From Nitriliruptoraceae bacterium (lineage in GTDB: Bacteria; Actinomycetota; Nitriliruptoria; Nitriliruptorales; Nitriliruptoraceae), in assembly GCA_007120465.1 (NCBI GenBank), contig SKNO01000044.1:1-45457 (forward strand): a DNA stretch of 45,457 bases, written 5' to 3'. This document shows, piece after piece, positions 1,061 through 16,404 of this stretch; the stretch's first letter is position 1, and the number at the start of each line of letters is the position of its first letter. The notes below the pieces were generated by a model, which worked only from the letters and a program-made list of their open reading frames with translations, was not told where the DNA came from and ran no database searches. A program made the position numbers and the translations under genes.

Positions 1061-1613
1061 TGCGGGCTCCAGGATCGCGGATGGATTCGAGGTGGGTTCG
1101 ACCTCCCGAGGCTAACGGCGGTCACGACGTGACGCAGGAGCAGGTCATGCAGTACGGACGATGGGTCCCGTGATCGCGCGATGGTGAGCGTGAGCTTCCT
1201 CGTCGGGCTGACCACCACCCTGGCGTGGGGCAGACCCTGGACCCCTGGGGGTGCTCAGCGGCGCTCCGAGCGAGCGTCCGAGAGTGCGCCCGGCCCGAGG
1301 AACCGGCCGTCACACCAGCGCGACGTCGAGCGCGACGGGCGCACGATCGCTTGAGCGGGCGGGGACGACGCCTAGCGTCTGACGTGCTGGCTGCGGCGAG
1401 CCTCACATCCTGACACCCCCGCGGACATCGGGAGCCTGCGGGAGGCCGCGTTAGGGGGTCCCAGCACTCGCATCGACCCTCGTCGACCCGTCAAGGGTGA
1501 TCGCTCGTCGGGGCGGGCCGCATCCTGCCCGACAGGTGGGTTGTGCAACAGGCACCGCAGGGCGGGGGCTCGCGGGTCGGGTCTCCCGTCGACGACACGA
1601 CGGAGGGCTCGAC

Positions 1614-3029
1614 ATGTCACGCAGGTCCGTACTGTCCCTGCTGGCCATCGCTGCACTGGTGGTCGGTCTCATCGGCGCTGCGGGCGCGCCACCCAACGCA
1701 GCATCCGGTCCAGACGCGGCCGACGAGGATCGCTACCTCGTCGTGTTCCGCGGCCAGGGCGTACCCAACAACGCTGACGCCATCGTCAGCAACGCCGGAG
1801 GCTCACTCGTGAGCACGCTCCCAAGCGTCGGTCTCGGATTCGCGACCTCCGCAGATCCGGGCTTCGCTGATGCACTCCGCAGCAGCGACCGCGTCGCCGA
1901 GGTCGATGTGGAACCGCGATACGCCCTGCCCGAGTCCGTCACCGGCCATGCCGTGGCGACCGGAACGGATCCCACCGAAGCAGCGTTCTGGGACCTCCAG
2001 TGGAACATCCGTCGCGTCCACGCTCCTGAGGCGTGGGAGACGACCACCGGCAGCCACGACACCGTGGTCGCGGTGATCGACACCGGGGTGGCATGGAACC
2101 ATCCCGACCTCGCTGCAAACGTCGTCTACGCGGCCTGCTTCTCGACGCCAGCGTGGGAGTGCAGCGAGTACCCGGACCTGCACTGGCACGGCACTCACGT
2201 TGCCGGGACCGTCGCCGCAACCGGAGCCGTCGGCGTCGCTGGCGTCGGACCGGATCTCGGGATCGCGAGCTACAACGTCTTCGAACTCATGGAGGTCGAC
2301 GAGGATGAGTTCGCCGTCCTCGCTTCCTTCGAGGCGATCGCCGCAGCGATGCTCGATGCTGCCGACCAGGGCTTCGACGTGATCAACATGAGTCTCGGCG
2401 CGTTCATCGACATGGCCGACGGCCGTGATACCGCGGCCACGTGGACCGCCGTCCAGCGCGTGGGAGAAGCGGTGCAGCGTCAGGGCGTGACGACGATCGT
2501 CTCGGCCGGGAACGCAGCCTTCTCCCTCAACGGCCGCGTGAAGTCGGTTCCCGGTGGGGTCGCCGCGAACACCAACGTGGCGGCCACCGGCATCCGTCCC
2601 GACCCGGCCTTCCCGCAGGAAGGCGCCTTCGACGTGCTCGCCTTCTACAGCAACTTCGGCGCCTCGGTCGAGATCGCCGCTCCCGGCGGAGACTGTGGAC
2701 TGCCCGATAGCTGCGACCCGGCGACCCGGCCACCGAACTTCCTCGACTACACCATCCTCAGCACCTTCGTCGTGCTGTCCGTCACGCATCCGGACGACAT
2801 CCCTCCGTGTGTCGACACCGAGGACTGTCCGGTGACGTGGGGATTCGCGATCGGCACGAGCATGGCCGCGCCTCACGTGTCCGGCGTCGCCGGACTCGTG
2901 CGGGACGAGTTCCCCCACTTCAACGCCAACCAGGTGGCGAACCAACTGACGCGGACCGCCGAGCCCCTCGGTGACCGCCAGCTCTTCGGCCACGGGATGG
3001 TCGACGCACACGCCGCTGTGACCCGCTGA
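1614..3029 (+). CDS. Secreted S8 (subtilisin-like) serine peptidase
   Basis: MSRRSVLSLLAIAALVVGLIGAAG signal peptide; catalytic motifs VAVIDTGVAW (Asp), HWHGTHVAGT (His), GTSMAAPHVSG (Ser). ATG at 1614 preferred over the ORF-track start at 1497. Confidence 0.92.
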   Translation: MSRRSVLSLLAIAALVVGLIGAAGAPPNAASGPDAADEDRYLVVFRGQGVPNNADAIVSNAGGSLVSTLPSVGLGFATSADPGFADALRSSDRVAEVDVEPRYALPESVTGHAVATGTDPTEAAFWDLQWNIRRVHAPEAWETTTGSHDTVVAVIDTGVAWNHPDLAANVVYAACFSTPAWECSEYPDLHWHGTHVAGTVAATGAVGVAGVGPDLGIASYNVFELMEVDEDEFAVLASFEAIAAAMLDAADQGFDVINMSLGAFIDMADGRDTAATWTAVQRVGEAVQRQGVTTIVSAGNAAFSLNGRVKSVPGGVAANTNVAATGIRPDPAFPQEGAFDVLAFYSNFGASVEIAAPGGDCGLPDSCDPATRPPNFLDYTILSTFVVLSVTHPDDIPPCVDTEDCPVTWGFAIGTSMAAPHVSGVAGLVRDEFPHFNANQVANQLTRTAEPLGDRQLFGHGMVDAHAAVTR

Positions 3030-4699: not shown

Positions 4700-4915
4700 T
4701 CAGTCGAGCTCGGGCATCGGGACCGGTTGCGGGCGCGGCTTGCAGGTGCCGCAGCTCAGCGCGTCCTCGGTGACGAGGGCCTCGGCCCGCTCACGGTCGT
4801 GGCTGCGGTAGACGGCCAGCACGAAGGGGGCGAAGCCGGCATGGTCCTCGCACAGCCCACGGCCGCAGAAGCGACAGGTCCCTCGGGCGGGACGGGTGCA
4901 GAAGAAGCAGGTCAC
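4700..4915 (-). CDS. Small Cys-rich zinc-binding-like protein (DUF2180/B-box-like pattern)
   Basis: MTCFFCTRPARGTCRFCGRGLCEDHAGF...CGTC; CxxC...CxxCxxxxCxxH pattern; GTG start, 52 bp downstream of the M50 gene on the same strand. Confidence 0.6.
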   Translation of the reverse strand: MTCFFCTRPARGTCRFCGRGLCEDHAGFAPFVLAVYRSHDRERAEALVTEDALSCGTCKPRPQPVPMPELD

Positions 4916-4966
4916 GGTGTCCTCGCAACGGTGTGGTCGGTCACGGAGAGATCCGGAGGCAGCCGG

Positions 4967-7900
4967 TCAGCGGCTGATCGTGATGGTCAGGGGGAAGCGT
5001 CGGCTGGTGCCGCCACCGTCCGCCACGACGTCGAAGGTGCGCTCTCCCGGCGAGGCTCCGCGGGCAGCCGTCACCGTCAGCCGCAGTGTGGCCGGGTCGT
5101 CATCGACGTCGACCTCGCCGGTCCCGTTCGCCCACATGCACGTCAGGTCCTGGGGTAGGTCGGCGCAGCGCAGCGTGACCGTGCCCACGAAGCCGTCCTC
5201 GGGCGTCACCGTGCAACTCGTGTGTGTGTTGCTGCCCGGGCCGACGGTCAGGCTCGCCGGGGTGCACGCCAGCCCGAACCCGGGATCGGGTTCCGGCTCC
5301 GGATCGGGGTCGGGCTCCGGATCGGGATCTGGTTCGGGGTCGGGCTCCGGGTCGGGGTCGGGCTCCGGATCGGGGCCTGGGTCGGGGTCGGGCGCGGGTT
5401 GCGTGCCGGGCGACGGATCGGGCGACGACCCCGGGCCGGGGATCTCGCCAGGATCCTCCCCCGGCTCCTCCCCGGGGTCTGCCGTCGCGGTCTCCGGGAC
5501 CAGCTCGGGCTGGGACACCGGGTCCTCCACGGCGCCAGGGCGCCGGGGGGCCTCCTCCGACGGTGGGCCGTCTCGATCTCCGGGGGCTCCAGACGGTGCT
5601 GGCCCCGCCACCAGAGCGACGCCCTCGGCTGCGCCCGCGCCCGGACAACCACCGCTCGGCCCCTCCGTGGGCATCGGCACCCCGTCCAGCGTCACGTGAC
5701 CGTGCTCGATGACGAGGCGGCCGGGATCGAGCGCGAAGGCGGCCTCCCCGAGGGACGAGACGTCACGACCCGTGACCGACACCGCCAGACCGAGGGGCAG
5801 GAACGCTGCTCGGTCCACCCGGGTGTCCGCGAGGATGCGTCCGCGCTGCAGCGTCAGCGACGCCTCGGGGAGGGTGCGATCCGGGATCCACCATCGCTCG
5901 CTCGGCAGGTGCCGACGCGTCAGCGTCCCGAGTTCCACGATCGCTCCGGCGCAGAGCACCTGGGTGGCACCGCCAGCGAAGGTGAGCGAGGCGAGCGCGC
6001 CGTCGCCCACCTCGACGCGGTCGTCGGGGCCGACGGTCCGTCGCGCGCCAACCGCCAGCAGGGTGCGGCCAGGGCCGTCGGTCTGGATCCGCACGTCGCC
6101 GCGGAGGACCTCGAGCAACGCGCGATCGTCGGGGATCTCCGCCCACCCCGTGCCGGGAGCCAGGGCCAGCGGGATCGCCAACAGCGCGAGGAGCAGCATC
6201 AGCGCGACGAGCCTGGCGAGGCGGCGCTGCAACCGCCGGTCGACCTCGTCATCGCTCGGCGCCGGGACGGCGGTCGGCGGTGGCCTCACGGGGACGTGGG
6301 CGTCCTCGCCGTGGGTGCCATGAGCCGGTGGGTGGCCGTCCACGGCCGGAGGCGGCGCGTCCGCGCCGAACAGGGTGAGCCGGTCGAGCTGCGGCACCTC
6401 CCACGCCTCGACGGAGGTCCGTGCCACCGCGCGCAGGGGGCGGTCCGGACTCACCGGCACGAGCAGGTCACCACGCCCGAAGACCGTGCCGTCCTCGCCG
6501 AGCACCGTCCCGCTCGCGATCACGGCACCACGGTCGGGGTCGTCGAGGCTGACCGTCGTGTCCGGCGGCCACGAGACCGGACGGAGTCCACGCAGCAGCG
6601 CTTCCCGGGACTCGTCGTCGATCCCGGCGAACGCGGGTGCCCCGGCCAGCAGTGCTTCCGCGTCCGCGCGGTCAGCCGGCACCGGACCCACCAGCGGCCC
6701 CACGATCCGGGCGAAGGCAGCCGCCGGGATGCGCAGCAGCCGCGTCCCGGCAGCCAGCCACACGAGCGAGGGAGCAACGCCCGCGAGCGCGGCGCGGCTG
6801 CCGACCAGATGGCCCGGACCGGCGCGTGCCCGCACCGTCCCCGGCGGGTCGCCCGGCCGCCGCCCTTCCAGCGCGCCCTCCACGACCACCAGCACGTCCC
6901 GGTCGGCAGCGTCGAGGTGGCGGACCACCTCGCCGCGACGGGGATCGAACCACCTCGACTCCGCTGCGAGGTCCCCGAGCGCCTCGGACGGCAGCGCACC
7001 GAGCCGTGAGGCCTGGAGCGAGCGCAGACGGTTCGGCGCGTCCGCCTCGATCGCCCGCTCGTGCCGGCGGCGACGGGCAGCGGCGAGCCGGCGCCCCATC
7101 CACCGCAGGACCCCGTGGACCACCGGCGCGAACAGGCCACCGACGATGAGCACGACCAGCCCGCGTGACACCCAGCCGGCGTGCCAGGCACCCGCCACCA
7201 GCCCGGCGACCCGGTCCCGCCACATCCGCACCGCGATGCCCAGGAAGACCACCAGCCACAGCGCGGCGAGGAAGCCGTACATCGTCACGAACCGGCCCTC
7301 ACGGTCCAGCCCGGCCCAGCCGAGCGAGCGGGTGCGGACCGTGCGGACCAGCGAGGCGATCCCCCGTGCCCGCAGGTTGGGGATCTCCAGCCAGTCCATC
7401 GCGAGGTAGTACCCGTCGAGGGCCATGAGCGGGTTCAGGTTGAACAGCGCGTTGAGGTACCACATGAACGCGAGCCGGAACGCGACCGGCGACAGCTCCG
7501 GCCAGACGAGCGCGGCGAGCTGCAGCAGCCCCGCCATCATCAGTGCCGACAGCGGCCCTGCGGCGCTGGTCAGCAGCCGCGCGCGCCGGCCCTTCATCCA
7601 CACGTCGGTGGTGTCGACGAAGGCCGAGGGGATGCCGAAGTAGAACAGGAACCCGATGGCCGGGACCCGCCGCCCGGCGTGCTTGACCGCCAGCGCGTGC
7701 CCCACCTCGTGGGTCACCAGCGCCAGGATGTTCAGCCCCAGTAGCAGGGCGCCACCGGTGGCGTAGGAACCGCCGGCGAGCAGCAGGCGCTCGGCGCCGC
7801 CGATCCACGTCGTCACGAACAGGACCAGGCCGGTGAGCGCGAGGAGCCCGACCACGATCGCCCCGGCGCGGGTGAACAACCACCGCCCGATCGCGCGGTA

Positions 7901-8425
7901 CAGCAGGTCCGCCGGACGGTCGAAGTCGGCCAGGACGATGCGCCGCCCCTTGGCCGCCTCCACCAGTCCGCGTCCGACGCGGGACCCGTGGTGCCGATGG
8001 ACGCGTTCGAGCGGGCGGAAGGCGTCCACCGGCAGCTCGGCGAGCATCCGGTTCGCCGCGAGGTCCGCGACGGTGCGGGTGACCTGTTCGGGCGCGAGCC
8101 GGCCGCTGATCCGGACGAACTCCCGCACCAGTTGCGCGACGGTGCGGGTGCCGTCCATCAGGGTGGCGAGATCGCGTTCCTCCGGCGAGAGTCGGACGTA
8201 GGCCGCCTCCCGGTCGGGCGAGCGCAGCATCACGTAGGGCTGGCCGCGCACCGACGTGAGGCGCGCCTCCTCGATGCCGCTGCGCAGGTGCGGCCGGGCC
8301 TTCGCGGGGTTGAGCCGCTCGACGACCGCGTCCCACAGGTCCGCGTCGGCGGGACCGGTGGGGCGACCGGGCGCACGGCCGGCCAGAGCCTCCCACAGGC
8401 TCACCCGGTCCCGCGTGACCTCCAC
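4967..8425 (-). CDS. Giant multidomain membrane protein: PqqD/RRE-like N-terminus, M50 (site-2-type) metalloprotease, two degenerate cyclic-nucleotide-binding-like domains, TM, FecR-like domain, PD/PE-rich linker, C-terminal Ig/BACON-like domain
   Basis: N-term YVRLSPEERDLATLMDGTRTVAQLVREFVRISGRLAPEQVTRTVADLAANRML; THEVGHALAVKHAG and NPLMALDGYYLAMDWLEIPNL metalloprotease motifs; VEGALEGR..GTVRARAGPGHLVGSRAAL; LLEVLRGDVRIQTDGPGRTLLAVGARRTVGPDDRVEVGDGALASLTFAGG; PDPEPDPDPE repeats. GTG start at 8425. Confidence 0.85.
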   Translation of the reverse strand: MEVTRDRVSLWEALAGRAPGRPTGPADADLWDAVVERLNPAKARPHLRSGIEEARLTSVRGQPYVMLRSPDREAAYVRLSPEERDLATLMDGTRTVAQLVREFVRISGRLAPEQVTRTVADLAANRMLAELPVDAFRPLERVHRHHGSRVGRGLVEAAKGRRIVLADFDRPADLLYRAIGRWLFTRAGAIVVGLLALTGLVLFVTTWIGGAERLLLAGGSYATGGALLLGLNILALVTHEVGHALAVKHAGRRVPAIGFLFYFGIPSAFVDTTDVWMKGRRARLLTSAAGPLSALMMAGLLQLAALVWPELSPVAFRLAFMWYLNALFNLNPLMALDGYYLAMDWLEIPNLRARGIASLVRTVRTRSLGWAGLDREGRFVTMYGFLAALWLVVFLGIAVRMWRDRVAGLVAGAWHAGWVSRGLVVLIVGGLFAPVVHGVLRWMGRRLAAARRRRHERAIEADAPNRLRSLQASRLGALPSEALGDLAAESRWFDPRRGEVVRHLDAADRDVLVVVEGALEGRRPGDPPGTVRARAGPGHLVGSRAALAGVAPSLVWLAAGTRLLRIPAAAFARIVGPLVGPVPADRADAEALLAGAPAFAGIDDESREALLRGLRPVSWPPDTTVSLDDPDRGAVIASGTVLGEDGTVFGRGDLLVPVSPDRPLRAVARTSVEAWEVPQLDRLTLFGADAPPPAVDGHPPAHGTHGEDAHVPVRPPPTAVPAPSDDEVDRRLQRRLARLVALMLLLALLAIPLALAPGTGWAEIPDDRALLEVLRGDVRIQTDGPGRTLLAVGARRTVGPDDRVEVGDGALASLTFAGGATQVLCAGAIVELGTLTRRHLPSERWWIPDRTLPEASLTLQRGRILADTRVDRAAFLPLGLAVSVTGRDVSSLGEAAFALDPGRLVIEHGHVTLDGVPMPTEGPSGGCPGAGAAEGVALVAGPAPSGAPGDRDGPPSEEAPRRPGAVEDPVSQPELVPETATADPGEEPGEDPGEIPGPGSSPDPSPGTQPAPDPDPGPDPEPDPDPEPDPEPDPDPEPDPDPEPEPDPGFGLACTPASLTVGPGSNTHTSCTVTPEDGFVGTVTLRCADLPQDLTCMWANGTGEVDVDDDPATLRLTVTAARGASPGERTFDVVADGGGTSRRFPLTITISR
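5272..5404 (-). repeat. Low-complexity repeat encoding (PDPEPDPDP)n linker
   Basis: Iterated gaycccgayccggar codons; tandem runs of ggctccggatcggggtcg on + strand. Confidence 0.85.
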
Positions 8426-8483
8426 CGTGCTCCCCTCACGTCACGAGCGCCACAACGCCACAGCCGTCCTACGCGCAACCGCG

Positions 8484-9434
8484 TCAGTCGCGCGTGGGTT
8501 CCCCTTGGGCCTCCGGCGCCTCGGGATCCCCGTCGCCTTCCACGACGTCGCTGGACACGTCGATGCCTCCCACGACCTCGATGGTGGGCTCACCGGACGT
8601 CGGATCGAAGCCCTCGTTCTGGATCACGACGGGCTCGATCGGCACCTCGTTGCCCTCGACCTCGGTGGAGGAGTTGAGCTCCGCCAGGTCGTCCGCGCCC
8701 GATCCAGCGGAGCGTCGCACCGGGACGTACATGACCTCGTCGTCCGACGTCGTGCCCTCGGCACGTGCAGGCTCCTCGTCGGCGAGGTCATCGATCGGCG
8801 CCTCGCCGACGGAGGTGCCGTTCGCCGTGAGCCGCGCGAAAGCGTTGAGGGCAGGTTCCACGTCCTCCTCGGGGGTCCGGAGATCGCCGGATCGGTCGTC
8901 TTCGGCCAGCGACGGCGAGTCCGGATCCCCGGTGGACGCGTCCCGATGGAACTGGACCTTGACCCTGCCTGCGGAGTCGGCGCTGTCCGCCTCGTTCCCC
9001 GGCAGGTCGCGCACCTCCGACGGCCCCTGGGCACCTTCGCCGGAACCCCCGGCCCCCACCGGGGACCCTCGGGTCCCCTTCGTCACTCCGGGATCGTGCT
9101 CGTTGTGGTCAGTCCACGCCCCGCCTGGGGCCGCGCCGGGTGCACCACCCTCGGCCGCAGCCGTCGGAGCCGCGAGGTCCGCATCGGCCGTGGGGCTCGA
9201 GCCGCCTCCACCGCCGGCGAAGCCGAGGAGCACCCCGAAGATCGCCGACTTGCTCGTGCGCCGCTCCACCCCGTGCTCGCTGGCACCACCGTCGTCCAGG
9301 CTCGCGGCCAGCACCTCCAGGTCGCCTTCCTCGAGCGAGTACCCGGCCAGGGCCACAGCGGGATCGTCCGCGAGCGCATCCCGGAACGCCGCATCGGTCA
9401 CCAGCCGTTCGAGTACGTCGTCGATGTCGGACAT
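8484..9434 (-). CDS. Leader-module paralogue 1 (316 aa), candidate substrate/precursor-like protein
   Basis: MSDIDDVLERLVTDAAFRDALADDPAVALAGYSLEEGDLEVLAASLDDGGASEHGVERRTSKSAIFGVLLG...; same N-module as 9461-10411 and 12136-12477. ATG at 9434 with upstream GGGAGG. Confidence 0.8.
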   Translation of the reverse strand: MSDIDDVLERLVTDAAFRDALADDPAVALAGYSLEEGDLEVLAASLDDGGASEHGVERRTSKSAIFGVLLGFAGGGGGSSPTADADLAAPTAAAEGGAPGAAPGGAWTDHNEHDPGVTKGTRGSPVGAGGSGEGAQGPSEVRDLPGNEADSADSAGRVKVQFHRDASTGDPDSPSLAEDDRSGDLRTPEEDVEPALNAFARLTANGTSVGEAPIDDLADEEPARAEGTTSDDEVMYVPVRRSAGSGADDLAELNSSTEVEGNEVPIEPVVIQNEGFDPTSGEPTIEVVGGIDVSSDVVEGDGDPEAPEAQGEPTRD

Positions 9435-9460
9435 CGTCGACCTCCCTTCAGCGTCGGCCG

Positions 9461-10411
9461 TCATCGGTCGGTGTCCTGCCGCCCGGCCGCGTCATCGAGC
9501 GCGTCGTCGGGATCCGGTGGTGCGCTGCTGCTCTCACCTTGCATGTCCGAGCCGTTGGCTTTGAGGAAGAGGTGCACGGTCTCCGCCTCCTCGGTCTGCT
9601 GCTCGGCGACGAGGTCGGGAGGCTCGGTCCGTGGTCCGTCAGCGGGACCTGCCGGATCCTGATCCCGGGGCGGCGACGCCTCGTCCTCCTCGGCCTGCCC
9701 CTCGCTGAGTCCGGCTTCACTCGCAACCATCTCAGGCTGCGACGGAGGCGGATCCGACTCGCCTTCGACCCCCTCCAGCTCGAGGTAGGCGTCGAAGTCC
9801 GGCTCCGGTTCCTGCGGCGCCACGAGGCGGTCTCCGTTCGCCTCACCTTCCAGCCCCTCCGCCGTCGCGTCGACCTCCGGCAGGGCCCGGGTGTCGGACG
9901 CCTGGACGAGTTCGCCGTCCGAGCGGAGACCTGCCGGGCCTCGAGCTGTCTCTCCCGAGGCGGCTGCCGGGTTGGCTGGGTCGGAGATGTCCAAGAGGAG
10001 GGCACCGCTCTCCACGTAACCGGGATGAGCCGCCTCCTGTTGGGCGAACGCATCCTCCACGTCCGGCGGCGCCCCGATCCTGCTCGCGTCGGCGGCGTCA
10101 CCTTTGGAGGAGAGGCCCGTCGCGACCGAGGTGGGACCTTCGTCATCGGGAGCGACGAGGTCGGGCTGCTCGCCGGCACCGACGCCGGTGCCGGACAGTA
10201 ACGCGAGGGCCTGGAACAACGCGGACTTGCTGGACCGCTGCTCGACGCCGTGATCGCTCCCCTGCCCCTCGTCGAGCGTCGCTGCCAGGACCGCCAGGTC
10301 GTCCTCCTCGAGGACGTAGCCGCCGAGCGCAGCCACGGGATCGTCCTGGAGCCGTGTCCGGAACGCCTGGTCGGTCACCAGCCTCTCCAACACCTCGTCC
10401 ACATCGGACAT
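9461..10411 (-). CDS. Leader-module paralogue 2 (316 aa), candidate substrate/precursor-like protein
   Basis: MSDVDEVLERLVTDQAFRTRLQDDPVAALGGYVLEEDDLAVLAATLDEGQGSDHGVEQRSSKSALFQALALLSG...; ATG at 10411 with GGGAGG upstream. Confidence 0.8.
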   Translation of the reverse strand: MSDVDEVLERLVTDQAFRTRLQDDPVAALGGYVLEEDDLAVLAATLDEGQGSDHGVEQRSSKSALFQALALLSGTGVGAGEQPDLVAPDDEGPTSVATGLSSKGDAADASRIGAPPDVEDAFAQQEAAHPGYVESGALLLDISDPANPAAASGETARGPAGLRSDGELVQASDTRALPEVDATAEGLEGEANGDRLVAPQEPEPDFDAYLELEGVEGESDPPPSQPEMVASEAGLSEGQAEEDEASPPRDQDPAGPADGPRTEPPDLVAEQQTEEAETVHLFLKANGSDMQGESSSAPPDPDDALDDAAGRQDTDR

Positions 10412-10490
10412 CGCCTCGCCTCCCTCTCTGGGCCAGGGACGTGCCGCCCGACCGTGAGCGGCATCGATGCTGACATCCTCCTGTCCCAGA

Positions 10491-10514
10491 GACCTCCGCC
10501 ACCTGGCGGAGGTC
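10491..10514. promoter_or_regulatory. 24-bp palindrome copy 1: GACCTCCGCCACCTGGCGGAGGTC
   Basis: 11-bp arms GACCTCCGCCA/TGGCGGAGGTC; 80 bp upstream of the 10411 start; matches copies at 12631 and 13421. Confidence 0.7.
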
Positions 10515-10539
10515 GAAGGAGGATCCGCGTCCCGGCCGG

Positions 10540-11358
10540 TCATCGCCCGAGGAGCCCGTCCACCGCTCCGGCCAGGTGGAGCATCCCCGGATACGTGGCC
10601 GCGAAGGCCCAGACGAAGTGGTTGAGCCGCATCACCACGGCGATGCCGAGGTGGAGCAGGAGCCCCGCACCCACGAACAGCAGCGTCGTCCGCACCCCAC
10701 CGAGCACCGCGATCGGTGCTGAGCACTCGACGGCGATGACCACCCACGACAGTCCGCGGGAGACGCATGGATGGGCGCGCAACGCCGATCCCACGCGCGG
10801 ATGCCCGAACGCGCGGGTGCTCAGGATGCTGGACAGGGCGTCACCGCTGCGCCACCGCGCCGAGACGAGCTTGGTCCACCCCGCAGCGGTGTACGCCAGC
10901 ATCCCCTGCGCGCCCACGAACCATAGGGCCACGTCCCTGGCCAGCGGGCCGCTGGCGAGGTAGTAGGCGACCCCACCGACCAACACCAGGGTCAGCATGC
11001 GGTCGCCGGCATCGATCCCGTGGCCGAGCCGCAGGACCAGGAGCAGGTGAACGGTGAGGACCACCACCAGCCAGGGCAGGGGCTCGAAGGCGGCCCCGGG
11101 CAGGAGGAGGACGGCGACCGCGAGCACCTGCCCCGCGACCAGCCACGACATCCCGGCCGCGCCGTACACCACCTGCAGGGCGCGGCCCGGCGCGCCACAG
11201 CTCGTCGACCTGAGCCCGGTCCGCAGGATGCCCCAGTCGAGGATCCCGCCAACACCGAGCTGGGCGCGCAGACCCGACAGCTCGAGCGCGACGAGCCCGG
11301 CGCCGACACCGGCCATCAGCACCATGGCCGAAGCCAGCGACTCCGGAGGCGGGCTCAC
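10540..11358 (-). CDS. HTTM-like / SdpB-like multi-pass membrane protein
   Basis: AYTAAGWTKLVSARWRSGDALSSILSTRAFGHPRVGSALRAHPCVSRGLSWVVIAVECSAPIAVLGG...GIAVVMRLNHFVWAFAATYPGMLHLAG; many TM segments; GTG start. Confidence 0.72.
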   Translation of the reverse strand: MSPPPESLASAMVLMAGVGAGLVALELSGLRAQLGVGGILDWGILRTGLRSTSCGAPGRALQVVYGAAGMSWLVAGQVLAVAVLLLPGAAFEPLPWLVVVLTVHLLLVLRLGHGIDAGDRMLTLVLVGGVAYYLASGPLARDVALWFVGAQGMLAYTAAGWTKLVSARWRSGDALSSILSTRAFGHPRVGSALRAHPCVSRGLSWVVIAVECSAPIAVLGGVRTTLLFVGAGLLLHLGIAVVMRLNHFVWAFAATYPGMLHLAGAVDGLLGR

Positions 11359-11367
11359 CGACCCACC

Positions 11368-11889
11368 TCAGGACGGCAGTCGGTGGTAGGCGGACAGGAA
11401 CGTGGGTTCGACCTCGGGCCGTCCCTGGGGGTTGCGAACGCGGACCTGCGCGATCAGGAACTGGCGGCGCCGCGTCGCTGGACCGGCGGCGACCCGGCTG
11501 ACGCGTCCCAGGAGCAGCAGGTAGGGCACCTGCACGAGCATCTGCTGGGCGGGCAGGCGATGCACGGCCACGCTCAGGCTGTCGGACAGGGCGATCGTGG
11601 CACTCTCCACCCGCTTCGTCGGGTTCCAGAGCCACGGGACACGACCACGGGGCGGATCCGGTAGTTCACGCCAGGGCGTGCAGCCGCCGGTGACCTCGAC
11701 GTCCCGGTACAACATGACCCGATCGGCGTCGATCGGTCGGGGGCCGAACACCGCCCAGCGCGGGAGCAGACCGAGCCGGTCGGCGATCCGAAGCCGCCGC
11801 AGGGGTCTCTCGGGCCCGAACTGTGCGAGGAGGGTCACGACGAACCAGACGCCGAGCGCGACCACGAGGAGGCTGTCGGCGGTCCTCAT
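11368..11889 (-). CDS. Single-TM-anchored protein of unknown function, partner of the HTTM-like gene
   Basis: MRTADSLLVVALGVWFVVTLLAQFGPERPLRRLRIADRLGLLPRWAVFGPRPIDADRVMLYRDVE...; ATG overlaps stop of the upstream ORF (CGATGA). Confidence 0.7.
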   Translation of the reverse strand: MRTADSLLVVALGVWFVVTLLAQFGPERPLRRLRIADRLGLLPRWAVFGPRPIDADRVMLYRDVEVTGGCTPWRELPDPPRGRVPWLWNPTKRVESATIALSDSLSVAVHRLPAQQMLVQVPYLLLLGRVSRVAAGPATRRRQFLIAQVRVRNPQGRPEVEPTFLSAYHRLPS

Positions 11890-12146
11890 CGTGACGGCTC
11901 GCAGAGCAGGCGTTGACGGATCCGGACCAGTGCCGTGACATCGAGGCCGGGATCGACGTCCGAGAGCATCGTCAGCGCTTCCTGCGGGAGCGGTCCCGCC
12001 AGCGCGTCCCGGCGCAGGTCGACGAGCCGGGGCGGCACGGGCGGGGCAGGTCCCTCGCGCTCGCTCGAGGTGGTCACCTGATGACGGGCGCGAGTCCCAC
12101 CGGCCGATCGAACAGCCACATCGACCCCCACGCGTTCAGGCGGCAC
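11886..12146 (-). CDS. Small protein of unknown function, translationally coupled to 11368-11889
   Basis: PPRLVDLRRDALAGPLPQEALTMLSDVDPGLDVTALVRIRQRLLCEPSR*; stop overlaps next start; exact start uncertain. Confidence 0.5.
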   Translation of the reverse strand: MPPERVGVDVAVRSAGGTRARHQVTTSSEREGPAPPVPPRLVDLRRDALAGPLPQEALTMLSDVDPGLDVTALVRIRQRLLCEPSR

Positions 12147-12477
12147 TCGTGCCGATGTCGCTGCCCTCGATCCCGGGTTTCATGCTCCGAGCCGACCGCG
12201 GTGCACGAGGCAGGTCATCGAGGCTCCCCGGGTCCTCACCGCCGCCGGCGAACATGTCCCCGGCTTCCGTGAGCGCGGCGAACAGCGTCGACTTGCTCGT
12301 GCGCTGCTCGACCCCGTGCTCGCCACCCTCAACGTCATCGAGGGTGGCGGCGAGGACCTCGAGATCCTCGTCGAACAGCACGTAGCCGGACACCGCGGAC
12401 GCCGGATCGTGCCTCAGCTGGTCCCGGAACGCCGGGTCCGTCACCAGCCGTTCGAGCACCTCGTCGATCCCTGCCAT
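12136..12477 (-). CDS. Leader-module paralogue 3 (short form, 113 aa)
   Basis: MAGIDEVLERLVTDPAFRDQLRHDPASAVSGYVLFDEDLEVLAATLDDVEGGEHGVEQRTSKSTLFAALTEAGDMF...SDIGTSAA. Confidence 0.8.
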   Translation of the reverse strand: MAGIDEVLERLVTDPAFRDQLRHDPASAVSGYVLFDEDLEVLAATLDDVEGGEHGVEQRTSKSTLFAALTEAGDMFAGGGEDPGSLDDLPRAPRSARSMKPGIEGSDIGTSAA

Positions 12478-12630
12478 GACCAACTCCTTGCGTTCAGGAC
12501 CTCGTGCGATCGCGTGGCCGGCGAGCCCACCGGACGACGCAACGGTCTTGGGACACCCGGGAGAGGTCGCGCTACCCGCACCGGACCGCGCGACCTACCG
12601 AGGCACATCCTGCATCACCCACCGCATCGG

Positions 12631-12654
12631 AACCTCCGCCACCCGGCGGAGATC
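12631..12654. promoter_or_regulatory. 24-bp palindrome copy 2: AACCTCCGCCACCCGGCGGAGATC
   Basis: CTCCGCC-ACCC-GGCGGAG core; 154 bp upstream of the 12477 start. Confidence 0.65.
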
Positions 12655-13288
12655 AGTCCACGTCGGCGCAGATCGCGTAGACCCCGATGTCAGACTGCTG
12701 CGTGCTCTCCCGGATGCGGATCGTCCAGCCCGTGCCGTCGGTGGTCGGCCGCGAGCGCGAGACGTGCAGACGGTTCGCCGGCGCCGTCCGGTTCGGATGC
12801 TCGTAGCCACCGCCGAGGACCTTCTTGCCGTCAGGGCAATTGACCGTCAAGTTCCCAACGAGTCCGAGTCCCGAACCCACTACCTCGATGCTGACACGCT
12901 CCCAGCCGGAGATGCCCGCCGGACCCTGCGGCCCTTCGGGTCCCTGTGGACCCTCGGGTCCCTGTGGACCTTCCGGGCCTTGCGGACCCTCGGGCCCCTC
13001 CGGACCTTCGGGGCCTTGGGGGCCTTCCGGCCCCTGCGGACCCTGGGGTCCGACGATGTTCCACTCGACGGCGACCTCGCTGGGCTTGCAGTCGGCGGCG
13101 TCCGTCACGATGCGCGTCATCCCGTTGTTCTGCTGCACGCAGGCGTGGATCGTGTTGGCGTCGTGCGCCGCGATCGCCGCTCCCGCGTACACCAGCGCGA
13201 TGGCCAGCGCGGCGATGACCGGGACCGCCAACACCCGACGGCGTCGTGCTCTCACGCCAGGCTGCGGACGTGCTCTCTGGACCTCCAT
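12653..13288 (-). CDS. Membrane-anchored/secreted collagen-like (Gly-X-Y) repeat protein
   Basis: [42 protein letters not shown]...[46 protein letters not shown]...; RBS AGGAGGG before ATG at 13288. Confidence 0.85.
12918..13052 (-). repeat. Collagen-like GPQ/GPE coding repeat
   Basis: Runs of ggaccctcgggtccctgtgga-type 9-bp units encoding Gly-Pro-Gln/Glu. Confidence 0.85.
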
Positions 13289-13420
13289 GGCTTGCGTCCC
13301 TCCTGTTCGAACGGTCCCCGGCACGGTCGCCGGGGACGGTCACCTGCATGGACGCGCCGGAGTGGCTCCGCCGTGCCCGCGGTTCCCGTGCCGATCACCC
13401 TCCGCCGCTCCCACCACCGC

Positions 13421-13444
13421 AACCTCCGCCGGCTGGCGGAGATC
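13421..13444. promoter_or_regulatory. 24-bp palindrome copy 3: AACCTCCGCCGGCTGGCGGAGATC
   Basis: CTCCGCC-GGCT-GGCGGAG core; in the divergent intergenic region between the collagen-like gene and the AAA-LuxR gene. Confidence 0.7.
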
Positions 13445-13503
13445 CCCTGGGAAAGCCCGTCGCCTGCGGGTAGTGTTCTCCTGTCGGGAAGACGGGGCTC
13501 GGG

Positions 13504-16404
13504 ATGGCTGTCCTCGTCGGGCGGGCGCAGGAGCTCGCGGAACTGGATGCCTGCGTGGCGGCGGCGTCGGATGGCACCGCCCAGTTCGCCGTGCTCGAGG
13601 GCGTGGCCGGTATCGGCAAGACCCGTCTCCTCGAGGAGACGCTCGGCGGCATCCACGGCTCCACGACGGTCATGCTCCAGGCCTCGGCGGAGGAGCTGGA
13701 GAGCGCTCGCCCGTTCGGTCCGCTCGCACGTGCCCTCTCCAGCAGCACGGCGGTCTCGCCGGCGACGGCGCAGCTGGTGGCCGGAGCGTCCTCCGGCAGC
13801 TTCGCTCCCTCCGACACCTCGCAGTTCGGGGTGATCGACGCGATCCTCGACCAACTCGAGATCATGGCGTCCTCCGCACCGGTCGTGCTCAGCATCGACG
13901 ACCTGCAGTGGGCCGACCCCGCCACGATCCAGACCCTGCTCGCGCTGCTGCAGCGTCTCGCCGACCTGCCGATCGCCGTGCTGCTAGCGCTGCGACCCCT
14001 GCCCCGTTCACCACAGCTCGAGCGGCTGATGGAGGCGGCGCTCGCGCACCCGAGCCGCCACCTCCACCTGCGTGCCCTGGACGACCACGAGGTAGCTGAC
14101 CTCCTTGCCGAGGCGCTGGCCGCGCAGCCGGGGCGCTCGCTGCGGGCGCAGGTACGTCGCGCCGGCGGCAACCCCTTCTACCTCCATGAGCTGGTGCGAG
14201 CCCTCGACGAGGAAGGCGCCATCGAGGTCCGCGATGGCCGGGCCGAGGTCATCGACAGCACGTTCCCGGCGACCCTGGGCAGCACGATCCTCCGCCATCT
14301 TCGCTTCGTGGAGCCGGCGACGATCGAACTGCTCAGCCACGCGGCCGTCCTCGGAACGACCTTCAGCGCCGACGACCTGGCCGCCCTGACCCGGCGCCGC
14401 GTCGACGAACTGGTCGACCCGCTGCGTCACGGCATCGAGGCCGGCGTGCTCCACGACCGGCCCGACGGCTTCGCGTTCCGGCACGACCTGGTCCGCGAGG
14501 CGCTCTACGGTCGCCTCCCCCACGGCATGCGAGCCCGGCTCCACCTCGAGGCAGCTCGTGCCCTCGCCGACATCGGCGCCCTCGCGGCCCGCGTGGCCAC
14601 CCACCTCGCGATCGGAGCACAACCGGGCGACCGTGAGGCGATCGCGCTGCTCCGCCAGGCCGCGGTCGAGATCATGATGACCGCGCCGGACATCGCCGAG
14701 GGGTTCGCGCGACGCGCCATCGGGCTCTCGGCTCCCGGTGAGCCGGAACACGATCAGACCCGCGCCGACCTCGTCACCCTGCTCGTGTCCTCCGGGCGGC
14801 CGACGGAGGCCAGGGCCCTGGCGACGGAGCTCCTCGCGGACCCGCACGACCGCGCGGTCGACGGCCGGGTGCGCTTCACGCTCGGACAGGCCTCCTTCCT
14901 CGTCGGTGACCTGGCCGACGCGGTCGACCAGATGCACCTGGCCGCCAGCGACCCGTCGCTGACGGCCGCGGAACGGTCCCTGGCACTGGCTGAGGCGGCC
15001 ATGGTGCAGCTGTTGGCGTCCGCCGATCTGGCCGGGGCGCAGACCGATGCGGAGGCCGCTCTCGCGGCCTCACGCGGCGCCGGCGACCCGATCGGCGAGT
15101 CGATGGCCCTGTGCGTCCTCGCAGGCGTCGCGCAGTTCCGCGGCAACGTCACGCAAGCGAGACGGGTCGTCGAGCAGGCCACCAGCCTGGGTGGTCGGAC
15201 CGTGCCGATCGAGCCGGGGACGCTGAACTCGGCGCTGCGGGACCCGCACATGTTCCGCGGCATGGTGCTCGTCGACGCGGACGAGTTGGATGGGGCCACG
15301 GAGGCGTTCCGTGCCGGCAGCGCGATCAGCGCCGCCCGTGGGGTCGCGGGCCGTGGTCACTTCTACCACTACTGGCAGGGGTACCGGCACTACGTCGCCG
15401 GGGCCTGGGACGACGCCCTCGCGGAGCTGCAGACCGGGCTGGCCGTCGCCGACGAGATCGAGAACCGGCGCGGTGTCCTGGCGGCCCATGCCCTCACCGG
15501 GCTCATCGCCCTGCACCGCGACGACCTCGAGGTGGCTGCCGACCACGTCGCCCGCAGCGAGGCACAGTTCGCCGCCGACGGTCCGGACTTCGGTGCCGAG
15601 TGGATGCTCCTCGGACGCGCGCTGCTCCACGAGGCCGAGGGCGCGACCGGCGACGCGTGCGCGCTGCTGGCCGGGGTGTGGTCCGCGCTCGAGGAGCTCG
15701 GATCCCGGTTCCACTACCGCAGCCTCGGTGTGGACCTGACCCGTCTCGCGGTGGCGACCGGTGACGTCGCGACGGCAGGCCGGGTGGTCGACGCCCTCGA
15801 GGGGTTCGCAGAGCAGGAGCCGCTGGCGACGATCCGCGGCGCTGCCCTCCACGCCCGGGGGCTGCTCGAGGAGGCGACCACGGCACTGGTGGAAGCGGCG
15901 GAGCTGCTGCGGACCGGCCCCCGGCCCCTGCCGAGCGCGAAAGCACTGGAGGATGCGGCCGACGCGCTGGCACGGGACGGCCACGTAGACGCGGCGCGCC
16001 AACACTTCCTCGACGCCCGTCGCACCTACGAGGAACTGGGGGCGGTACGGGAGACGCACCGGCTCCTCGCACGCATGCGTGCCGCGGGGCTGCACGCGGG
16101 CGCGCGGGGCCCGCGCCGGCGTCCCGCCCACGGGTGGGACAGCCTGACCGCGACCGAGCGTCGCGTCAGCGAACTCGTCGCCCAAGGACTGTCCAACCCA
16201 CAGATCGGCGAGCGACTGTTCGTCTCGCGGCGCACGGTGCAGACCCACGTCTCCAACGTGTTCCGCAAGCTCTCGCTGGCATCCCGTGCGGAGCTGGCCG
16301 CCGAGGTCGTCCGTCGGCAACGTGGCGTGGCCGCTCCACCGAACGTCGATGCGGACGGCCCGGCGGACCTCTCCGAGGCCGCGCCCGAGCCGACCGGAGG
16401 CTGA
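13504..16404 (+). CDS. Large AAA/TPR LuxR-family (LAL-type) transcriptional regulator
   Basis: [13 protein letters not shown] Walker [24 protein letters not shown] Walker B; C-terminal [54 protein letters not shown]. Confidence 0.93.

Follow-up and report, generated by a model that had tools for sequence, protein, structure and literature searches.

A conserved actinobacterial cassette of an RRE-like/M50 protease fusion, a 71-residue protein and leader-bearing proteins: a possible leader-guided processing system at the membrane

The window analysed here, a stretch of 45,457 nucleotides, is one whole contig (SKNO01000044.1) of the draft genome of a Nitriliruptoraceae bacterium (80.5% complete, 294 contigs, 3.26 Mb). 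The open reading frames of a minus-strand block at 4700–13324 and of a divergent LAL gene at 13504–16404 were verified, and the following features were assigned.

4700–4915, minus strand: Znf71, a zinc-finger protein of 71 aa, with four Cys/His metal-ligand pairs and the C-terminus PRPQPxxMPExD
4967–8425, minus strand: M50 fusion, 1152 aa, from family matches and AlphaFold
8484–9434, minus strand: paralogue 1, a module-bearing acidic protein of 316 aa without Cys or TM helix; Os1348-type leader match
9461–10411, minus strand: paralogue 2, a module-bearing acidic protein of 316 aa without Cys or TM helix; Os1348-type leader match
10491–10514, no strand: palindrome GACCTCCGCCACCTGGCGGAGGTC, 5' of the unit paralogue 2 – paralogue 1 – M50 – Znf71
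10540–11358, minus strand: HTTM/SdpB-like membrane protein, accessory here
11368–11889, minus strand: 173-aa protein with one N-terminal TM helix; homologues lie beside HTTM genes
12136–12477, minus strand: paralogue 3, a short module-bearing protein of about 113 aa; leader match, syntenic orthologue in a second genome of the genus (G002)
12631–12654, no strand: palindrome copy, 5' of paralogue 3
12653–13324, minus strand: collagen-like protein with an N-terminal hydrophobic segment
13421–13444, no strand: palindrome copy between the divergent collagen-like and LAL genes
13504–16404, plus strand: AAA-LuxR (LAL) regulator

Paralogue 2 is the first gene of its unit and Znf71 the last. Relative to the preliminary description, the starts of the three paralogues are amended to 9434, 10411 and 12477, and the 71-aa gene at 4700–4915, which had been overlooked, completes the gene set. 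A subtilase-family protease gene lies about 1.7 kb past Znf71 on the opposite strand (window 1497–3029, plus strand).

The fusion is composed, in order, of an RRE-like domain, an M50 core, two cNMP-like domains, a TM helix, a possibly FecR-like beta domain, a linker and an Ig-like end. The full-length AlphaFold model (mean pLDDT 68, pTM 0.52) is usable for the single domains and not for their arrangement. The N-terminus had been called PqqD-like from the translation, and the identification holds: residues from about 30 to 130 are modelled as a b3a3 fold (core pLDDT mostly 70–90) that matches the RRE of TbiB1 among solved structures (TMt 0.61, probability 0.99, E = 0.03), and the ApyI RRE family is matched by 14 of 22 fusion members (best E = 3.7e-5). 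The RRE profile matched no PDB sequence. The M50 ligands of the window fusion, HEVGH and NPLMALDG, conform to the patterns HExxH and NPxxxLDG. Its Pfam M50 and cNMP matches are weak; the two cNMP-like barrels modelled at about residues 480–680 have the double-domain CNB fold (PKA-R tandem CNB, E = 2e-10), and Pfam cNMP models match 16 of the 22 members. No canonical Arg-containing phosphate cassette was seen by eye in the consensus of the cNMP alignment. In the model, a single TM helix (726–755) is followed by an extracytoplasmic, beta-rich domain (769–913), a disordered Pro/Asp-rich linker and a terminal beta (Ig-like) domain. The extracytoplasmic domain may be FecR-like, a name for which the Pfam evidence is a weak match in one member of 22 (E = 0.042). 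The proposed PqqD-like/M50/cNMP/FecR architecture is retained in its first three parts and weak in the fourth.

The best curated family for the fusion is the daptide M50 protease (NF041824; E = 7e-39), which is also the closest family in all 22 members. Its representative MpaP is described in PMC10036551 as a leader peptidase that works within the membrane and depends on an RRE. Like MpaP, the fusion combines an RRE with an M50 membrane core; unlike MpaP, it also carries a pair of cNMP-like domains, a TM helix and a possibly FecR-like domain, and it scores 134 bits against a cut-off of 300. The cassette described below also differs from daptide systems in conserving no MpaB, C, D or M genes and in having proteins, rather than short peptides, as its putative substrates. 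The epipeptide protease EpeP/YydH, which is thought to cleave and export (PMC10885120), shares with the fusion the adjacency of an M50 metalloprotease gene to a precursor gene, but the fusion scores 47 bits against the cut-off of 225 for that family (NF058609) and no epimerase gene is conserved in the cassette. In pearlin pathways, the membrane M50 proteins TglG and TmoG act on leader-like scaffold peptides and free single modified amino acids (PMC10885120); the pairing of a membrane M50 with leader-like sequences recurs here, whereas pearlin genes are not conserved beside the cassette.

The three minus-strand paralogues have about 70 N-terminal residues in common, a module visible in the DNA as three direct copies of a 207-nt repeat, 71–73% identical. 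In a genome search each paralogue exceeds the cut-off of 40 bits of the Os1348/NHLP model NF038399 (44.2, 41.2 and 40.1 bits); hmmscan gave 37.5, 41.0 and 40.5 bits against the same curated cut-off. The initial likening of the module to RiPP leaders is thus borne out in that it is a recognised leader-type domain, though not of the types first named: no Nif11 model matched it, and at 23–26 bits it missed the gathering cut-off of 48 of Frankia_peptide (PF14407), so that the Franean1_4349 type was dropped in favour of the better-fitting Os1348 type. Os1348 itself is an 85-aa protein whose cluster contains GNAT, HExxH-domain and SagB-type genes (PMC7726476). The leader domain here resembles such NHLP-clan precursors closely enough to exceed the curated cut-off, but the proteins that carry it are of 113–350 aa, and no GNAT, HExxH-domain or SagB-type genes are conserved beside them. 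In the window paralogues the leader helices lead into the motif ExRxSKS and a brief hydrophobic stretch, and the remainder is acidic; the proteins contain neither Cys nor a TM helix. The motif ExRxxxS is present in all 40 module loci.

The proximity of the module genes to the fusion is not peculiar to this genome. A scan baited only with the fusion recovered full-length homologues in 20 genomes of Micromonosporaceae (45–52% identity over about 950 residues, 62–78% in the RRE-like part), and in 19 of these loci the fusion is followed by a module-bearing protein, mostly within 0.5 kb. The one exception, Virgisporangium (L061), has a module gene and Znf71 side by side elsewhere in the genome, unlinked to the fusion. 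When Znf71 was used as bait, all 40 loci fetched had the M50 fusion as the immediate upstream gene, and 20 of them have a module gene downstream (at one locus after another 2 kb or so). The two baited sets overlap and together comprise 53 distinct fusion sequences including that of the window; outside the window, physical linkage of the M50 gene to the module gene holds in each of 39 cassette loci that carry a module, some genomes having been sampled twice. Among more distant M50 homologues, five (in L064, L092, L099, L101 and L105) have an adjacent module gene, but the majority of these distant homologues have none nearby. Conserved linkage within the cassette, which the preliminary description had no means to check, is strong.

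Znf71 is the most conserved component and an obligate partner of the M50 fusion. It is 68–73% identical between the window and Micromonosporaceae, where it lies between the fusion and the module protein and was found in 81 of 201 sampled genomes, in exactly one copy each. It has no Pfam match over cut-off, and its invariant tail is a candidate ligand of the RRE. A plasmid search with Znf71 gave no match, and a plasmid location of the cassette was rejected on these grounds. The conserved cassette consists of the fusion, Znf71 and a module protein, and is smaller than first proposed. The HTTM-like gene with its partner, the collagen-like gene and the LAL gene, initially counted among the members of a single maturation system, were discarded as core components: they are absent beside the cassette in 60 other loci, save for a single LAL-type match (28% identical, about 5 kb from the cassette in L055).

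The proteins headed by the module are diverse. In Micromonosporaceae they measure about 240–370 aa; the middle part is rich in Ala and Gly, and the C-terminal domain contains DxDxDG three to five times, a repeat that may serve extracellular calcium binding. In an Anaerolineae locus (L064, 465–1286, plus strand) the module gene sits directly upstream of the M50 homologue and encodes the module followed by about a dozen tandem 13-residue repeats (RGGEELTGVPAID); in another relative the module stands ahead of a Gly-rich chain. The leader is thus joined to varied proteins, and the size and DxDxDG-repeat domain of the Micromonosporaceae substrates make the output of the cassette look like a protein rather than a modified peptide. 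Another module gene adjoining an M50 homologue (L035, 2552–3987, plus strand; the same gene as in L099) continues, as judged by eye, into zinc-ribbon-like cysteines and an M23-like stretch.

The HTTM-like gene was recognised as such from a match to the SdpB family TIGR04033 (E = 6e-5; 22.7 bits, below the cut-off of 178) and from a homologue annotated HTTM; homologues also occur on actinobacterial plasmids. Its neighbour, the 173-aa protein, matches no Pfam model and NCBIfam only at chance level; it is 33% identical to the product of the gene preceding HTTM in Rhodococcus, it also lies beside HTTM in L192 and L194, and the plasmids on which its homologues adjoin HTTM genes are those of Rhodococcus, Streptomyces and Tsukamurella. 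Since the pair recurs on actinobacterial plasmids without the cassette, it is a separate unit brought in here. Glu carboxylation occurs in the HTTM/GGCX superfamily, and a true RiPP pathway with new chemistry, in which the HTTM/SdpB-like protein would act on the C-terminal parts of the precursors, for example by carboxylating Glu, would account for the placement of the pair between module genes and for the Glu/Asp-rich precursors. We consider it quite improbable, as the pair was found in no other cassette locus, none of the conserved cassette genes encodes a tailoring enzyme, the window precursors have no Cys and in most species the precursors exceed 230 aa. The arrangement recalls SdpAB in that an HTTM-type protein and a small TM partner lie near precursor-like genes; it differs in the low SdpB score and in that the pair is separable from the cassette.

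What ties the HTTM, collagen-like and LAL genes to the cassette here is the palindrome. As noted at the outset, it recurs at each transcription unit of the block, and a search of the 3.26-Mb genome with its 24-bp form (core CCTCCGCCN4GGCGGAG) found exact matches at three places, all in the window, compared with none for the reversed control. Palindromes with one mismatch precede a fourth module paralogue on contig C258 and lie between the LAL and collagen-like genes of G002. In G002 an exact copy also occurs inside a coding region on contig C7 with no module nearby, which shows that chance copies exist; two same-genus genomes have neither an exact site nor a module match. A role as plain terminator was rejected as the sole one, given the copy between divergent genes both here and in G002. 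The collagen-like and LAL assignments are sound (Pfam Collagen, E = 3e-9; Pfam AAA_16 and GerE), and G002 has the module gene (L110: 3981–4364, orthologous to paralogue 3), the collagen-like gene and the LAL gene (68% identical) in identical order. These genes look like a genus-level regulon that LAL likely controls, possibly by binding the palindrome.

Twenty of the 40 Znf71-baited loci lack a module gene downstream, and these form one clade. No module was found anywhere in these 20 genomes and two more, in a run of 22 that held no positive genome, although the same query found the module in four of four others. The HExxH motif is intact in every module-bearing locus; in the module-less clade it is intact in 10 of 20 loci and broken in the other 10 (YELGH, REYAR, REWAR, REFAR, HELAR, QEFGH and QECGH). 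On a fusion tree built with the HExxH columns left out, the module was lost once and HExxH changed state five times, always within the module-less clade (p about 0.009 if changes are proportional to branch length). In four module-less loci a leaderless short DxDxDG-domain protein adjoins a fusion with broken HExxH, a suggestive arrangement that would fit a protease whose task is to handle the leader on these proteins. Because the module was lost only once, the correlation is suggestive and no proof; a comparison of independent module-loss/HExxH-loss pairs was unusable, the tree holding a single pair.

The RRE is retained in all module-less genomes (58–69% identity), and together with the intact HExxH in half of them this indicates that the fusion has another substrate or role as well, and that module processing cannot be its sole job. 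The same facts could be taken to mean that the module is only a docking tag, holding proteins at the membrane on the fusion while the protease serves other substrates; that HExxH is never broken in the presence of the module, and that all five changes fall inside the module-less clade, leads us to think this rather unlikely. Persistence of the fusion and Znf71 without the module is also compatible with transmembrane signalling, the fusion being a sensor with an M50 activity that answers to a signal from outside, the module proteins and Znf71 its cytosolic partners or regulators, and processing a signal rather than maturation. The domain order, with FecR-like outside, cNMP-like inside and a TM helix between, agrees with such a role, and a link between FecR and S2P is known, RseP cleaving FecR (PMC8144685). 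In most Micromonosporaceae loci a gene for a membrane HtrA-type protease lies upstream; this could be counted in favour of signalling, but may be plain synteny. Moreover, no sigma factor belongs to the cassette, the module is of the RiPP-leader type and the DxDxDG domain looks made for the outside. We give signalling a low probability. As an observation in its own right, a membrane-anchored HtrA-type serine protease gene lies close to the cassette, on its upstream side, in L046 (5764–7554, plus strand) and in 32 of 40 Znf71 loci, in many of them with a two-component system also nearby; this may reflect synteny or a site-1/site-2 protease pair.

These results incline us, by a little, towards a leader-guided membrane processing cassette in which the module docks on the RRE-like domain and the M50 core trims the protein. 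The linkage and the single module loss with HExxH decay support an RRE-guided M50 acting on module proteins, and do not show it. The NHLP/Os1348-type helices would dock cytosolic acidic or Gly-rich proteins on the N-domain of the fusion, the M50 core would cut at the membrane, at or just after the ExRxSKS/hydrophobic stretch, and the C-terminal protein would be released and perhaps exported. Znf71 would be a constant structural or regulatory partner, the cNMP-like and extracytoplasmic FecR-like domains would regulate or scaffold the fusion, and in this genome the cassette would stand under one palindromic operator with LAL, the HTTM pair and the collagen-like gene. The assignments by sequence and fold, the linkage, the correlated loss and the specificity of the operator are what the data show; binding, cleavage and its site, export and regulation are steps that we infer. 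Against processing, the window substrates have no TM helix, unlike classical S2P substrates. A fuller version, in which RiPP-like maturation at protein scale proceeds on entire proteins, folded or repetitive, by leader cleavage in the membrane and Sec-independent export with Znf71 as a dedicated component, seems to us unlikely.

Small modified peptides are the setting in which RREs and NHLP-type leaders are known; in this cassette both are combined with a protease fusion of sensor-like build and with proteins several hundred residues long, an arrangement for which we found no published description. The cassette may trim and release whole proteins as bacteria trim small antibiotic peptides, and the protein-scale version, if true, would give actinobacteria a Sec-independent export route. 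Many of the species with the cassette are culturable, which opens the claim to direct tests, and nature supplies the controls in loci that have the module, loci that lack it and loci whose protease is broken.

The fourth module copy of this genome, on contig C258, lies near a LAL fragment and adjoins a gene whose product is a right-handed beta-helix protein that has repeats of the Chlamydia-PMP type and ends in an LPATG-like sequence (L013, 630–3467, plus strand). Downstream of this paralogue is a frame-broken, truncated relic of the M50 fusion (L013, 3400–4030, minus strand), comprising its first 90 or so residues joined to unrelated sequence; the pair of module and fusion was therefore at one time present twice in this genome.
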